Positions 34,723-46,222 of a stretch of 50,442 nt of DNA are shown piece by piece. Made by a program: the position numbers and the translations under genes. The DNA lies in assembly GCA_015490535.1 (NCBI GenBank), contig WFXP01000130.1:1-50442 (forward strand), read 5' to 3'. Source of the DNA: Gammaproteobacteria bacterium (GTDB taxonomy: Bacteria; Pseudomonadota; Gammaproteobacteria; Thiohalospirales; Thiohalospiraceae). Each line of letters starts with the position of its first letter. The first letter of the stretch is position 1. The notes beneath the pieces are model-generated. The model was not told the origin of the DNA. It searched no databases and was given only the letters and a program-made list of their open reading frames with translations.

Positions 34723-35233
34723 TACTCTTTCAAGGTAAAATATTAGGATGGTCGTAACTATTCAGCTCACCCCTGAAATCCGCCATTTCTGTGTTGAAAA
34801 ATGGTCATTTACACTCGTAAACTCACATTTTTCGCCTTGAACTGACGAATTTCATGGGCGATCTGAACAGTTACCAGCCTGTTTCAATACCATGCTGAAT
34901 AGTTACGGATGGTCTTCCTCAAATCGTATGGGTGAAATGGTAAATCATCCTTGACAGGCAGAATGCACGCCGGAAGATGGTCGGCAGAAGGGGATTGGGG
35001 AGAGTTTGGGATAGCCGAACCAGTCGCAATTGGCGCCGGTGGTGGATATCCGCCACTCCCCGGCCAGATCGCCCCAATCCCCTTCTGGTTACCAAGTATG
35101 TGGCGTGCATTCTGCCTGTCAAGGACGGAGCCGCTACGCGGTGATTTACCATTTCACCCATACGATTTGAGGAAGACCCAATCCGGATTCAGCGCCCCTC
35201 TGGATCCTGACTTATTACTTTGAAAGAGCACCA
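34720..35233 (+). repeat. PAL element copy D (complete, carries a nested miniature transposon)
   Basis: Left end TAGTACTCTTTCAAGG, right end TTGAAAGAGCACCA. Without the 153-bp insertion and its 8-bp duplication the element is about 353 bp. Arms and inner stem are as in copies A and B. The right outer end is the long type and the left the short type. The internal minus-strand promoter has a degraded -10 (CATACT). Together with the short flanks it fills the space between fliJ and tyrS. Confidence 0.9.
34754..34906 (+). mobile_element. 153-bp IS66-like miniature transposon, copy 2
   Basis: Ends GTAACTATTCAGC and GCTGAATAGTTAC, flanked by the perfect 8-bp duplication GGATGGTC (34746-34753 and 34907-34914). 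It differs from copy 1 by a few substitutions only. Relative to the GAGGAA target motif it lies in the opposite orientation to copies 1 and 3, so it is an independent insertion. Confidence 0.9.
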
Positions 35234-39799: not shown

Positions 39800-39889
39800 G
39801 AGGCTAGTACTCTTTCAAGGTGATAAATCAGGGAGGCCTTCCTCAAATCGTGTGGGTGAAACGGCAAATCACCGCATAGCGCTCCGTCC

Positions 39890-39917
39890 TTGACGGGCGG
39901 AATGCGCGCCACATAAT
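39890..39917 (+). promoter_or_regulatory. Internal promoter of PAL copy E
   Basis: TTGACG (39890-39895), 16-bp spacer, CATAAT (39912-39917): one change from the -35 of the other copies. It points through the palindrome toward the PCP_red-kelch genes. Confidence 0.45.
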
Positions 39918-40105
39918 CGTTAACCAGAAGGGGATTGGGGCCAGCTGGCCGGGGAGTGGCGGATATCCACCACCCGCGCCGATTGCAACCGGTTCGGCTA
40001 TCCCAAAGCCTCCCCAATCCCCTTCTGCCGACCATCTTCCGGCGTGCATTCCGCCTGTCAAGGATGATTTGCCATTTCACCCACACGATTTGAGGAAGAC
40101 CCAAT

Positions 40106-40370: not shown

Positions 40371-40589
40371 ATGAGCGGTGACAAACCTGTCTGGAACGAC
40401 GAGGCGCTGGCAAAACTGGAGAGGATCCCATTCTTCGCACGCAGGATTGCCAAAAAGAAGATCGAGCGGCGCGCCGCCGAGCTGGGGGAAGACACCATCA
40501 CTCCCGAGCTGATGGAGAGGGTGCGGAGCGAGATGAAGAACCGCAACAGGCAAGATCCATCCCCCCCGGAGGACCGTCATGAGCCGTAA
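40371..40589 (+). CDS. PCP_red-domain mini-protein
   Basis: A 72-aa protein made of one domain like the C-terminus of the light-independent protochlorophyllide reductase large subunit (PCP_red family): WNDEALAKLERIPFFARRIAKKKIERRAAELGEDTIT, a pattern read here over two helices, followed by a charged tail. Stand-alone forms occur in many non-photosynthetic bacteria and have no established function. ATG 40371 has GGAG eight bases upstream. It overlaps the start of the kelch gene by 11 bases, so the two are translationally coupled. Confidence 0.75.
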   Translation: MSGDKPVWNDEALAKLERIPFFARRIAKKKIERRAAELGEDTITPELMERVRSEMKNRNRQDPSPPEDRHEP

Positions 40590-41991
40590 ACCGGTCTTCA
40601 GGCGCATCCTCTTCGCCCTGAGCATGGCCCTGGCCGCCTCGACCGGGGCCGGGGCGGTCCAGGAGCAGGGCAAAAGCTGGCTGGCCGCCTGGCGCGAGAC
40701 ATCCCCCATGCTGGAGGTGCGTTCGGGGGCGGCCCACTACGCCGCCAACGACATAATCCACATGATCGGCGGGATAGGCGGGAAGATCGTGAAAGGGAAG
40801 GTTGGGCCCGACGCGGCGGCCTCCACCACCAGGATGTTCATGCGTTCGTCGGAGTATGCGCGGGTCAGGCCGGACGGCTCCCTCTCCGGCTGGCGCAGCG
40901 GTCCCCCGCTCAACATGGCGAGGGGGTTCTTCTCTGCGGTTGCCCACAACGGCCACCTCTATGTGGTGGGGGGAGCCAACGGTCCGTTCGGCAGCAATCT
41001 GCTGGATAGCGTGGAGCGTGCCAGAATCAGGCCGGACGGAACCCTGGAGGGATGGGTTCTGGAAAAAAACCGGCTCAATATCGCGCGGCGTTGCGTGAAA
41101 CTGGCGGTAATCGGCAACTACATCTACGCCTTCGGCGGCTTTGGGGGCATCCTGCTGGATACCGTGGAGCGCGCCGAGATCAAGCCGGACGGCTCCCTGG
41201 GCGAGTGGCTGGTGGCAAGCGACCGCATGACGACCGCCCGTTACATCAGCGGGGTGGAGGCGGTCGGCAAGGGTGTCTATGTGGTGGGTGGCCACGACAA
41301 GGACAACGGTGCAGGAATGAGGGAGGTGGAGTGGAGCAGCCAGAGCGGCGACGGCTTTTTCGACCCATGGGCCGAGCGCAGCCCGCTGCAGACCGGGCGC
41401 TACGGCCTGGCCACCGCCATCCACAACGGCTTCATTTACGCCCTGGGCGGGTTGAGCGGCGCAGCCTACCTGGATTCGGTCGAGATGGCGCAGATCGATT
41501 CCGGGGGTCGGCTGTCGGAGTGGCGGTTCACCACCCCGCTGCCCTCGCCGCGCGAAGGGGCAACCTCCTTCGTCTTGAACGGGAACATATATCTGATTGG
41601 GGGAAGCAACAGGAGCGGCTTTCAAAACAGCGTTGCCTACGCCACCTTCAACAGAGAGGGGGAGATCGGCTATCTGGCGACCCCGGCCGAGATCGAGCAG
41701 CATGCAGCCAGGATCGCGGAGGCAAAATCGAAGCAGAGAGAGCTGCCGCACGAGGGCACCATCACCGAGCACATAAAAATGGCGCAATACAGCTATATCC
41801 ACGTGAGGCTGGATGATGGGGTGGAGATATGGCTGGCGGCACCGGTCCAGGATCTGGAGAAAGGGGCAAGGATAAGATTCCCCAACGGCACCGTCATGAG
41901 GAACTTCCGTAGCAACACCCTCGATCGCGAATTCCCGTTCATCGTCTTTATCGGTGAGGTCAGGGAGGTCGGCGCCGCCACGGCCAAATAG
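40579..41991 (+). CDS. Secreted kelch beta-propeller protein with NrfJ-like C-terminal domain
   Basis: Begins with a Sec signal peptide (MSRKPVFRRILFALSMALAAS, cleavage near AGA). Six kelch-type blades follow, each with the strand-GG pattern: HMIGGIGG, LYVVGGANG, IYAFGGFGG, VYVVGGHDK, IYALGGLSG and IYLIGGSNR. About the last 75 residues (from HEGTITEHIKMAQYSYIHV to FIVFIGEVREVG) resemble the small OB-like NrfJ domain: VxLDDGVEIWLAAPV and RNFRSNTLDREFPFIVFIGE. This combination is unusual to me. 470 aa, periplasmic or exported by inference. Function unknown; a role in redox or metal-centre assembly would be speculation. Confidence 0.78.
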   Translation: MSRKPVFRRILFALSMALAASTGAGAVQEQGKSWLAAWRETSPMLEVRSGAAHYAANDIIHMIGGIGGKIVKGKVGPDAAASTTRMFMRSSEYARVRPDGSLSGWRSGPPLNMARGFFSAVAHNGHLYVVGGANGPFGSNLLDSVERARIRPDGTLEGWVLEKNRLNIARRCVKLAVIGNYIYAFGGFGGILLDTVERAEIKPDGSLGEWLVASDRMTTARYISGVEAVGKGVYVVGGHDKDNGAGMREVEWSSQSGDGFFDPWAERSPLQTGRYGLATAIHNGFIYALGGLSGAAYLDSVEMAQIDSGGRLSEWRFTTPLPSPREGATSFVLNGNIYLIGGSNRSGFQNSVAYATFNREGEIGYLATPAEIEQHAARIAEAKSKQRELPHEGTITEHIKMAQYSYIHVRLDDGVEIWLAAPVQDLEKGARIRFPNGTVMRNFRSNTLDREFPFIVFIGEVREVGAATAK

Positions 41992-42003: not shown

Positions 42004-44139
42004 GTGGTGGGCAGGGGAGCCGCCTCACGCGGCCACCGCAGGCTGCTCCTGCTGACCGGGAGCGGCGCGTGGTGCCGCCGTGCCGCCGGCTCCCTTCTGG
42101 ATGAAGGGGACCACCGCCGTCTGCTGTGGGTAACCGCGGAACCGTGGAGGGGCCACCCGGCAGTGACCAGCCGGCAGCTGCCATCCATGCTGGGCGACGA
42201 GCTGGAGGCCCTGGTGTTCGATGCCTGGTCGGGGTTCGATCCGGACGCTTTCGGGGCTGCTGCGGGGATGGTGCGAGGCGGAGGGACGGTTCTGGTGCTC
42301 GCGCCGCCACTGGCCGAGTGGCCCCGCCATCCGGATCCGGCCCTGCAGCGCATAACGCCCTGGCCCCATGACTATCGCGGGGTTCGCAGCCGTTTCCTGC
42401 AGCGCCTGGTGGGGCTCATCGGGGAGAACCACTCCATCCTTACCGTCACGGAGGGCGACTCCCTTCCCGAACTCCGCCCTCCAGCGCCGGCCATCTCCGG
42501 CGATCCCGACGTGGAGTGCCGCACCGCCGAGCAGCAACAGGCCGTCGAGGCCATCTGCCGCGTGGTGCGGGGCCACCGGCGCCGTCCCCTGGTATTGTCC
42601 GCTGACCGCGGGCGCGGTAAATCCTCTGCGCTGGGGATCGCGGCGGCCCGTCTGCTGCGGGAGGGGCTGGAGCAGATCCTTGTCACCGCCCCCTCGCCAC
42701 GGGCAGCGAGCGCCCTGTTCCGGCAGGCCCGACGCCTGCTGCCCGGCTCCCGAGACAGCGGCCACCAGCTGCGCTGGAACAGGGGAACAATCGGCTTCGT
42801 GGCCCCGGACGCCCTGCTCGCGGAGCCGCGCCAGGCCGACCTGCTGCTGGTGGACGAGGCGGCCGCCATCCCCGCCCCCATGCTCGAAACGCTGCTGCGG
42901 CGCCACTCCCGGATCGCCTTCGCAACCACCATCCACGGCTACGAGGGGACCGGACGCGGCTTTGCGGTGCGTTTCCGGGAGAGACTGGACCGCCTCGCCC
43001 CGGGCTGGAGGACGCTGCACATCTCCTCCCCCATCCGCTGGGAGGAGGGGGATCCGGTGGAACGGTTTACCTTCCGCGCCCTGCTGCTGGACGCATCCCC
43101 GGCCGACGACCGGGAGGTGAGCGGAGCCGCTGCCGGGGACTGCGCGGCGCTGGAACTGGACCGGGACCGGCTGCTGAACGACGAATCCCTGCTGGAGGAG
43201 CTGTTCGGCCTGCTGGTGCTGGCCCACTACCGCACCCGCCCCTCCGATCTGCGCAACCTGCTGGACTGCCCGGATCTCTCCGTTTACGCCCTGCTCCACG
43301 ACGGTCACCTGGCGGCCGCCGCGCTGGTGATGCGCGAAGGTGGAATGGAGCGGGAGCTGGCAGAACGGATCTGGCTGGGGCGCCGGCGCGTCCACGGCCA
43401 CCTGCTGGCCCAGTCGCTGGCATTCCACGCCGGCTTTCCCGAGGCCGCCACGCTGCGCTACGCCCGCATCATGCGCCTGGCGGTCCATCCATCGGTACAG
43501 CGGCGCGGCCTGGGAACCAGGCTGGTGACGGCTATCACGGAGCGGGAAGAGAGAGCGGGGCTGGACGCCATCGGCACCAGCTTCGGCGCCACCCCCGGCC
43601 TGCTGGAGTTCTGGCACCGGCTGCAATTCCGCACCGCCCGCATGGGGCTGCGCCGGGAGGCCAGCAGCGGCAGCCGTGCAGCACTCATGCTGCGTCCGCT
43701 CTCCCGGCAGGGGGCAGAGCTGTGCCGGGCCATGTGGGGCCGGCTGCAGGAGCAGCTGCCGGAGCTGCTCCGCCGCCCCCTGAACGGTCTGGAGCCGGAA
43801 ACCGCTTGGCACCTGCTGCAGAACCTGCCCCCTCCGGTGACCACCCTGACCCCCGGAGAGTGGCGCGACGCCGCATCGTTCGCCTTCGGCAGGCGAAGCC
43901 TCCAGAGCTGCCTGGCGTCCCTCAGAAAGCTGGTCATCGCCACCGCGACAGACCGGGATGCCGCCACCAGTATCACCGCGCCGGACAGGGAGCGGCTGAT
44001 CCGCCAGATAGTGCAAGAGCAGGGAAACCGCAAGGAAACCTCCCCCCTGCGCGAGGCGGTCCGGCGCCTCCTGGAGCACTCCCGTCCGCAAGAATCAGAT
44101 ACTCAACAACTCCTTAACAGATTGTTCACAAAGTTGTAA
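42004..44139 (+). CDS. tmcA: tRNA(Met) cytidine acetyltransferase
   Basis: Acetylates the wobble cytidine 34 of elongator tRNA-Met using acetyl-CoA and ATP. N-terminal domain, then a helicase-like module with Walker A ADRGRGKSS and DEAH-like LLLVDEAAAIPAPML, then a GNAT acetyltransferase domain (MRLAVHPSVQRRGLGTRLV, the acetyl-CoA loop) and a C-terminal tRNA-binding tail. 711 aa, near the usual 670. The GTG at 42004 is the chosen start; a second GTG follows immediately. Confidence 0.93.
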   Translation: MVGRGAASRGHRRLLLLTGSGAWCRRAAGSLLDEGDHRRLLWVTAEPWRGHPAVTSRQLPSMLGDELEALVFDAWSGFDPDAFGAAAGMVRGGGTVLVLAPPLAEWPRHPDPALQRITPWPHDYRGVRSRFLQRLVGLIGENHSILTVTEGDSLPELRPPAPAISGDPDVECRTAEQQQAVEAICRVVRGHRRRPLVLSADRGRGKSSALGIAAARLLREGLEQILVTAPSPRAASALFRQARRLLPGSRDSGHQLRWNRGTIGFVAPDALLAEPRQADLLLVDEAAAIPAPMLETLLRRHSRIAFATTIHGYEGTGRGFAVRFRERLDRLAPGWRTLHISSPIRWEEGDPVERFTFRALLLDASPADDREVSGAAAGDCAALELDRDRLLNDESLLEELFGLLVLAHYRTRPSDLRNLLDCPDLSVYALLHDGHLAAAALVMREGGMERELAERIWLGRRRVHGHLLAQSLAFHAGFPEAATLRYARIMRLAVHPSVQRRGLGTRLVTAITEREERAGLDAIGTSFGATPGLLEFWHRLQFRTARMGLRREASSGSRAALMLRPLSRQGAELCRAMWGRLQEQLPELLRRPLNGLEPETAWHLLQNLPPPVTTLTPGEWRDAASFAFGRRSLQSCLASLRKLVIATATDRDAATSITAPDRERLIRQIVQEQGNRKETSPLREAVRRLLEHSRPQESDTQQLLNRLFTKL

Positions 44140-44374: not shown

Positions 44375-44668
44375 ATGATAACTGTCGCTGAAACCGAGTC
44401 CTTTCAGCGAAAGATCAACAAGTTACTCTCCAAGGACGAGAAGTCTGATCTGATAGCGTATTTGTCCGAGCATCCGTCTGCTGGGGATCTTATTCAGGGA
44501 GCTGGTGGCATCAGAAAGCTTAGATGGGCGAGAGGTTCAAAGGGCAAAAGCGCAAGAAAATGGGAAAAGCGTTCACTGAAATATCTGCTGGTCTGTCAGA
44601 TGCGATTCAGCATGCCAGGGGAAAGAAAACAAAGGCTGTTGAGCATAAGCCGGAACCAATTGATGTAA
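44375..44668 (+). pseudogene. RelE/HigB-like toxin, C-terminus lost
   Basis: Residues 1-59 match a full RelE-superfamily toxin of the COG4737 type (MITVAETESFQRKINKLL, DLIAYLSEHPSAGDLIQG, GGIRKLRWARGSKGKS). Intact relatives continue with a GVRVIYYYH-type strand and a Lys-rich, catalytic C-terminus. Here the frame instead runs into the start of the antitoxin gene in another reading frame and ends at 44668 with unrelated residues. An internal deletion of roughly 150 bases is inferred. The toxin should be inactive. Confidence 0.78.
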
Positions 44669-44847
44669 GGGCAATTAGGGAGAGAGCCGGAATGAGTCAA
44701 CAAAAGTTTTGTGCAACCTTCGGGATCTCTATCGGCACGCTGCGCCATTGGGAGCAGGGTCTTCGTTCTCCCAGGGGGCCGGCCAGGGTATTGCTTAAGG
44801 TTGTACAGCATAACCCTAAGGCCGTTGTGGAGTCCCTAAAAGAATAA
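44560..44847 (+). CDS. XRE-family antitoxin (HigA2-like) of the decayed toxin
   Basis: A 95-aa protein: N-terminal toxin-binding region (MGKAFTEISAGLSDAI, HARGKKTKAVEHKPEP), then a helix-turn-helix (VRAIRERAGMSQQKFCATFGISIGTLRHWEQGLRSPRGPA). It is full length for antitoxins of this type. It overlaps the toxin remnant in another frame. It may persist as a repressor of the operator at 44349 or by protecting against related toxins. Base composition is AT-richer than neighbouring genes, indicating transfer. Confidence 0.85.
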   Translation: MGKAFTEISAGLSDAIQHARGKKTKAVEHKPEPIDVRAIRERAGMSQQKFCATFGISIGTLRHWEQGLRSPRGPARVLLKVVQHNPKAVVESLKE

Positions 44848-45751: not shown

Positions 45752-45872
45752 GGCTCTCCTCTAGTACTCTTTCAAAGTAATAAATTAGGATCCAGAGGGA
45801 CGCTGAATCAGGATTGGATCTTCCTCAAATCGTATGGGTGAAATGGTAAATCACCGCGTAGCGGCTCCGTCC

Positions 45873-45900
45873 TTGACAGGCGGAATGCACGCCACATAAT
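45873..45900 (+). promoter_or_regulatory. Internal promoter of PAL copy F
   Basis: TTGACA (45873-45878), 16-bp spacer, CATAAT (45895-45900). The predicted start (near 45907) coincides with the first base of the 16-bp inner stem. It points toward the dehydratase-like operon. Confidence 0.5.
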
Positions 45901-45907
45901 CGTTAAC

Positions 45908-46010
45908 CAGAAGGGGATTGGGGCCGGCTGGCCGGGGAGTGGCGGATATCCACCACCTGCGCCAATTGCAACTGGTCCGGCTATCCCAAACTCTCCCCAA
46001 TCCCCTTCTG
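45908..46010 (+). ncRNA. Predicted hairpin RNA of the PAL element (copy F)
   Basis: If the internal promoter is active, the transcript would begin at the foot of a perfect 16-bp stem closing a 71-base loop that itself contains short palindromes (CCGGCTGGCCGG, GGATATCC). Presence as an RNA is inference from promoter position and pairing only. The same structure is present in copies B, C and E. Confidence 0.3.
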
Positions 46011-46222
46011 CCGACCATCTTCCGGCGTACATTCTGCCTGTCAAGGATGATTTACCATTTCACCCATACGATTTGAGGAAGATCATCCTAATTTATTACC
46101 TTGAAAGAGTACTAGGCTCTGCCCGGTATGTGCGAGGGTATGCCTTGACATGCCCGGGAGGCAAACATAGTCTTTTCCCCATGGGAGCGCCGAGGCTCCC
46201 TCAAAAGGACGCATTCACAACG

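Follow-up and report, generated by a model that had tools for sequence, protein, structure and literature searches.

The stretch of DNA analyzed here (the window; 50,442 nucleotides) carries on its forward strand a stand-alone PCP_red-domain gene that runs from an ATG at 40371 to a TAA ending at 40589 and encodes 72 amino acids, as read from PF08369 and hydropathy. By gene coordinates, it overlaps by 11 bases (40579-40589) the gene for a 470-residue protein (40579..41991), read from its ATG start, Kelch_1 matches, predicted model, Foldseek matches, and hydropathy as a probably exported six-bladed kelch propeller. The protein closes with a predicted OB-like barrel of the type that forms the N-terminal half of NrfJ (41740..41988, assigned by hhalign, modeling, and VIA-align), and we refer to this architecture as kelch-NrfJ. 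Next on the same strand is tmcA, encoding tRNA(Met) cytidine acetyltransferase (42004..44139; PF05127, PF08351), which is also the downstream neighbor in several other members of the genus, where the copies were recognized by eye. The window's own neighbors of the kelch gene look like housekeeping genes. The original prediction read the gene overlap as a sign of translational coupling and of a joint role for the two products. The overlap is there, but it is seen only in the window's genome, with gaps of 40 bp (G001), 45 bp (G004), and 52 bp (G005) separating the same genes in relatives. At the junction, Rfam models returned no RNA family at gathering score, and promoter and terminator patterns were no more frequent than in shuffled sequences; an RNA family or conserved terminator there was rejected on these results.

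The kelch gene begins at ATG 40579, with GGAGGA just 5' of the start. Its product matches Kelch_1 (PF01344) in five stretches above the Pfam cut-off (79.6 bits, E 1.1e-22), which together with the propeller fold of its predicted model places it in the kelch repeat family, and a manual reading of the model's strand list yields the six blades that had been proposed. The full-length model has a mean pLDDT of 77.4 and a pTM of 0.69, the propeller being covered by only three of 25 alignment rows; residues 369-385 form a low-confidence helix (block pLDDT of 58-65), and residues 391-464 a barrel with block pLDDT of 93-96. In Foldseek, the best-scoring hits are to kelch structures, six-bladed designs being frequent among them, with E-values down to 5.7e-18. 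The six-bladed fold is common to Keap1, NS1-BP, the designed SAKe proteins, and the window protein, but the latter is bacterial, probably exported, and distinguished by an OB-like tail and by C172 and H239, invariant in all 28 rows of the kelch-NrfJ alignment; R170 and R171 are kept in at least 27 of the 28. A hydrophobic N-terminal stretch, found in 25 of the 28 proteins, fits the export that was predicted, and kelch-NrfJ is probably exported as judged by this crude hydropathy count, which is not a signal-peptide predictor. Some relatives are probably lipid-anchored: nine of the proteins have a lipobox pattern, judged real by eye in six (L170, L171, L174, L175, L178, and L183).

No Pfam or NCBIfam model matches the tail over its cut-off. 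To judge the predicted resemblance to NrfJ, we compared a profile of six kelch tails with one of six NrfJ sequences (L154-L159), both shallow (Neff about 2), and hhalign aligned them over 72 columns, corresponding to NrfJ residues 23-94 of 216, with a probability of 98.7 and an E-value of 3.5e-16. BLASTP of the tail against one synteny-identified NrfJ gave E 4e-11 at 30% identity, and the best real score of 45.4 bits compares with 26.2 bits for the best of 1000 shuffled tails. On this sequence evidence, the last 75 or so residues of the kelch protein share homology with NrfJ's N-terminal half, and only with that half, since the window protein ends where the alignment to residues 23-94 ends. 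Both proteins start with a signal-like stretch; NrfJ has an extra C-terminal half and sits behind nrfI, whereas in the window the domain follows a kelch propeller. Modeled alone, from 56 alignment rows, the tail has seven strands at a pLDDT of 90.9, and its predicted fold is OB-like: OB folds occupy the leading places in VIA-align (best Z 9.6, then 8.9), with Foldseek returning other small barrels among its top rows and a best E-value of only 2e-3. Searching the tail sequence against PDB chains gave just two chance-level matches (E 0.15 and 0.16). No Cys or His of the tail is invariant, so it carries none of the known haem motifs, and haem binding by the tail was rejected on these grounds.

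The NrfJ references were identified by synteny in Campylobacteria, in a sample of the class of a Sulfurimonas MAG in which an NrfJ-like query matched 17 of 200 genomes, 16 of these neighborhoods being inspected. In six of them (L155-L159 and L169), the NrfJ-like gene comes immediately after three frames, one carrying four CXXC[HK] motifs, another five, and the last large and of CcsBA type; in L169 the NrfJ-like gene is short and broken. At L154, which is still among the six references, all that precedes it is a truncated CcsBA gene lying behind transposase-like frames; the nine remaining regions lack such an operon. The labels nrfH, nrfA, and nrfI for the upstream frames are based on how many motifs each frame has, how large it is, and where it stands in the order, rather than on a family search, and the arrangement matches the nrfHAIJ order in Sulfurospirillum multivorans (PMC4585668) and Wolinella, where NrfI is a cytochrome c synthase (PMC12285233). 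In the portions of the NrfJ and nrfHAIJ literature covered, no function is described for NrfJ, and one paper calls it an uncharacterized protein. The window's own NrfJ-domain gene has no nrfHAI upstream, its neighbors being the PCP_red gene and tmcA, and NrfA is over its cut-off in none of the eight genomes of the genus, six of which have weak partial matches.

The domain itself is widespread. A contig scan for the tail domain found 84 relatives from several phyla, 80 of which were kept; 66 of these loci were parsed, the frames of the other 14 not being returned by the ORF picker. Two of the 66 are kelch proteins (the kelch loci of the 80-locus scan being L091 and L109), 37 have a second, downstream OB-like motif, and 27 do not match that motif. 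The count of 37 is a minimum, because in several of the 27 a long C-terminal part escaped the pattern. A WWD-motif cytochrome c synthase lies near NrfJ-domain genes at just three of the 80 loci, ruling out such an association as a general feature. The window's genus has three stand-alone NrfJ-domain genes. Those in G001 and G004 neighbor CcsA, a tetrahaem cytochrome, and a ResB-like gene (matched as a contig-edge fragment under the ResB cut-off), and no cytochrome match lies near the one in G003.

The kelch fusion is real, as the original prediction held, and it recurs: a match spanning propeller and tail was found in 22 of 369 genomes of the class, in ten family groups by manual count, when the best four candidates per genome were scored. 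A contig-edge fragment over blades and tail in G392 (query 264-463) is not counted among the 22. In a closer sample, 12 of 56 genomes matched, including seven of the eight in the window's genus (all except G007) and none of the four genomes that share its family group but not its genus; full-length copies are present in three class-level genomes. A second copy, 62% identical, lies on contig C96 of the window's genome. In a 28-row kelch tree, all genus copies group together, and the nearest row outside them is G278; part of the deeper forks are weak, and some branches are long. Within the literature searched, kelch-NrfJ is an undescribed variant of known parts. Searches that mostly required all terms jointly, and are therefore weak, returned no description of a kelch-NrfJ protein or of a PCP_red/kelch link; similarly weak all-term searches found nothing on kelch with cytochrome c biogenesis or multiheme cytochromes or on cytochrome nanowires with propeller or NHL proteins, and nothing relevant on PCP_red, PCP reductase with radical SAM, or BchB structure.

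Outside the genus, we compared the neighborhoods of 19 kelch-NrfJ genes (those of G278, G314, and G518 shortened by contig ends) with 20 unmatched control regions drawn from six of these genomes, only one of which, G513, with four of the control regions, has the multihaem type of neighborhood. YyaL, a thioredoxin-fold DUF255 protein, is present in nine of the 19 regions and none of the controls, adjacent to the kelch gene in eight of them and separated from it by some genes in G047. Six regions, again with no counterpart in the controls, have a Reg_prop propeller directly beside the kelch gene and an NHL propeller nearby. Paired-CXXCH multihaem proteins were found in five regions vs. one control, and FGE-sulfatase proteins in two regions vs. 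none, with small CXXCH frames in both; the G278 and G518 regions have none of these neighbors. Raw counts give at least one CXXCH in 17 of the 19 regions vs. 2 of the 20 controls, and a frame with three or more in 5/19 vs. 0/20. We relied on the homology counts instead because YyaL carries CHWCH, probably not a haem site, and in eight of the nine YyaL regions this is the sole CXXCH frame or there is none. The neighborhood groups largely follow the kelch tree, within the limits of its weak deeper forks, and so represent few independent events, not 19.

One locus of the multihaem type, L228:899-10903, holds a CcmI/CycH-type TPR protein, a monohaem cytochrome, two Reg_prop propellers, kelch-NrfJ, an NHL propeller, and two five-haem paired-CXXCH proteins, and this cluster is kept whole or in part in L224, L229, L232, L238, and L241, across three family groups.

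The upstream gene is a clear PCP_red protein, PF08369 matching it at 60.7 bits (E 1.4e-16; cut-off 32.5), just as predicted, and there is no other PCP_red match in the window's genome, G000, whose completeness is about 92%. Standing alone is not novel per se for a PCP_red protein, since Asr4154 (PDB 2l09, 62-residue chain; E 1.1e-9) is a solved stand-alone homologue. The same 45-position module is present in BchB/ChlB, Asr4154, and the window protein, which stands alone like Asr4154 and lacks the oxidoreductase part of BchB. Against the BchB model NF002789 of NCBIfam, it scores 39.3 bits, with 509 required, over the C-terminal part only, and the protein is not a full-length DPOR subunit B. Hydropathy revealed no hydrophobic N-terminal stretch and no export signal in the PCP_red proteins, the high value for G003 arising from codons 5' of its ATG. 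Elsewhere, tandem PCP_red modules are built into proteins of the universal stress and radical SAM/SPASM types at L051:6041-9819 (G007) and L055:110-1798 (G004), as recognized by Pfam on L051. Both loci lie near a flavin amine-oxidase-type protein, L055 also near a cytochrome bd-like subunit, and long frames with several PCP_red matches are found in other genomes of the class as well.

Could the two adjacent genes form a functional pair, with PCP_red, synthesized alongside its exported partner, serving as a regulator or tetrapyrrole-linked helper in the cytoplasm? Their adjacency is the point in favor: PCP_red is present in seven of the eight genus genomes (absent from G002, 85% complete), and in five of those seven it pairs with the kelch gene, directly preceding it in G000, G001, G004, and G005 and by inference in G006, where the contigs that carry the two genes share a 151-bp end overlap at 99.3%, though the kelch copies of these pairs are split between two parts of the tree. 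Against this, G003 and G007 keep PCP_red after DUF455 (verified for G003) and ahead of tmcA without an intervening kelch gene, and the 11-base overlap is not conserved. More broadly, PCP_red was found in 25 of the 369 class genomes (24 over the cut-off; best 18 candidates per genome scored), together with kelch-NrfJ only in G000, G001, and G003, which belong to the window's genus, and 19 of the 22 kelch-NrfJ genomes have no PCP_red match. The compartments should also differ, the kelch proteins having an export signal and PCP_red none, which makes a shared periplasmic role unlikely. We therefore consider a functional pair highly improbable, and co-occurrence, synteny, and compartment lead us to reject joint function as a general claim. 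The proposed conserved pairing is seen in five of the eight genus genomes but not in kelch-NrfJ genomes outside the genus, and our best guess is that PCP_red is a lineage-specific neighbor, a separate cytoplasmic helical protein whose coupling to the kelch gene would be incidental or, at most, may reflect a regulatory link within the genus.

For kelch-NrfJ itself, we tentatively favor, at well below even confidence, a role as an envelope scaffold, that is, a binding or assembly factor for redox proteins. The propeller, joined by a linker to the OB-like module, would hold a client on one face, and the module would dock this client to a redox or cytochrome-maturation partner. Such a role is suggested by the homology to NrfJ, whose genes follow those of tetrahaem, pentahaem, and CcsBA-type proteins, by the stand-alone NrfJ-domain genes near a tetrahaem cytochrome and CcsA, and by the Reg_prop/NHL, multihaem, and YyaL neighbors. 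Envelope redox protein biology is the thread shared by the kelch-NrfJ contexts, with exceptions, and it lends indirect support to the predicted role around a periplasmic redox protein, though a share in it for PCP_red is unlikely. Counting against this role are the tail's lack of an invariant Cys or His, the YyaL regions with at most YyaL's own CXXCH frame (eight of nine), the G003 domain gene with no cytochrome match nearby, the lack of NrfA over its cut-off in the genus, the housekeeping-like neighbors in the window, the absence of a stated NrfJ function in the literature covered, and the small number of independent neighborhood events, set against unmatched controls. Only slightly less probable is a general protein-protein scaffold whose client varies by lineage (YyaL, an FGE-type enzyme, or a cytochrome cluster) with no common redox theme, as the three distinct neighborhood types largely following the kelch tree might indicate, but NrfJ and several of the neighborhoods have cytochrome or thioredoxin-fold partners in common. 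Kelch folds also include sugar-acting enzymes, and weak matches to NanM/YjhT models raise the idea of a mutarotase-like propeller acting on carbohydrate or cell wall, with the OB domain only aiding folding or anchoring. We regard this as improbable, since the TIGR03547 score of 23 bits is far below the cut-off of 256.35 and excludes membership in the YjhT/NanM mutarotase family, and no recurring sugar pathway was seen in the neighborhoods, searched with neighbor-gene queries only.

Extending the redox-assembly reading, the N-terminal domains of NrfJ proteins may represent an unrecognized class of extracytoplasmic OB module for maturation or assembly of c-type and multihaem redox proteins. Kelch-NrfJ would then be the propeller-fused form and, in some Gammaproteobacteria, would act with the Reg_prop and NHL propellers of an electron-transfer cluster of multihaem type, an idea that we consider rather unlikely as it stands. 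Whatever its role, this is a widespread domain with no Pfam or NCBIfam model over cut-off, and its kelch fusions, spread over ten family groups of the class, give new genetic systems for testing NrfJ domain function.

The window has two further features. A MITE-like repeat of about 267 bp with inverted ends is present at 34911-35178, 39835-40105, and 45820-46082, the second copy being directly upstream of the PCP_red gene. It has at least 109 matches on both strands of the window's genome (40 of 241 loose candidates scored), 92 in G002, and 25 in G001. Finally, two overlapping ORFs at 44375-44847 resemble, by eye, a RelE/HigB-type toxin and an XRE-type antitoxin.
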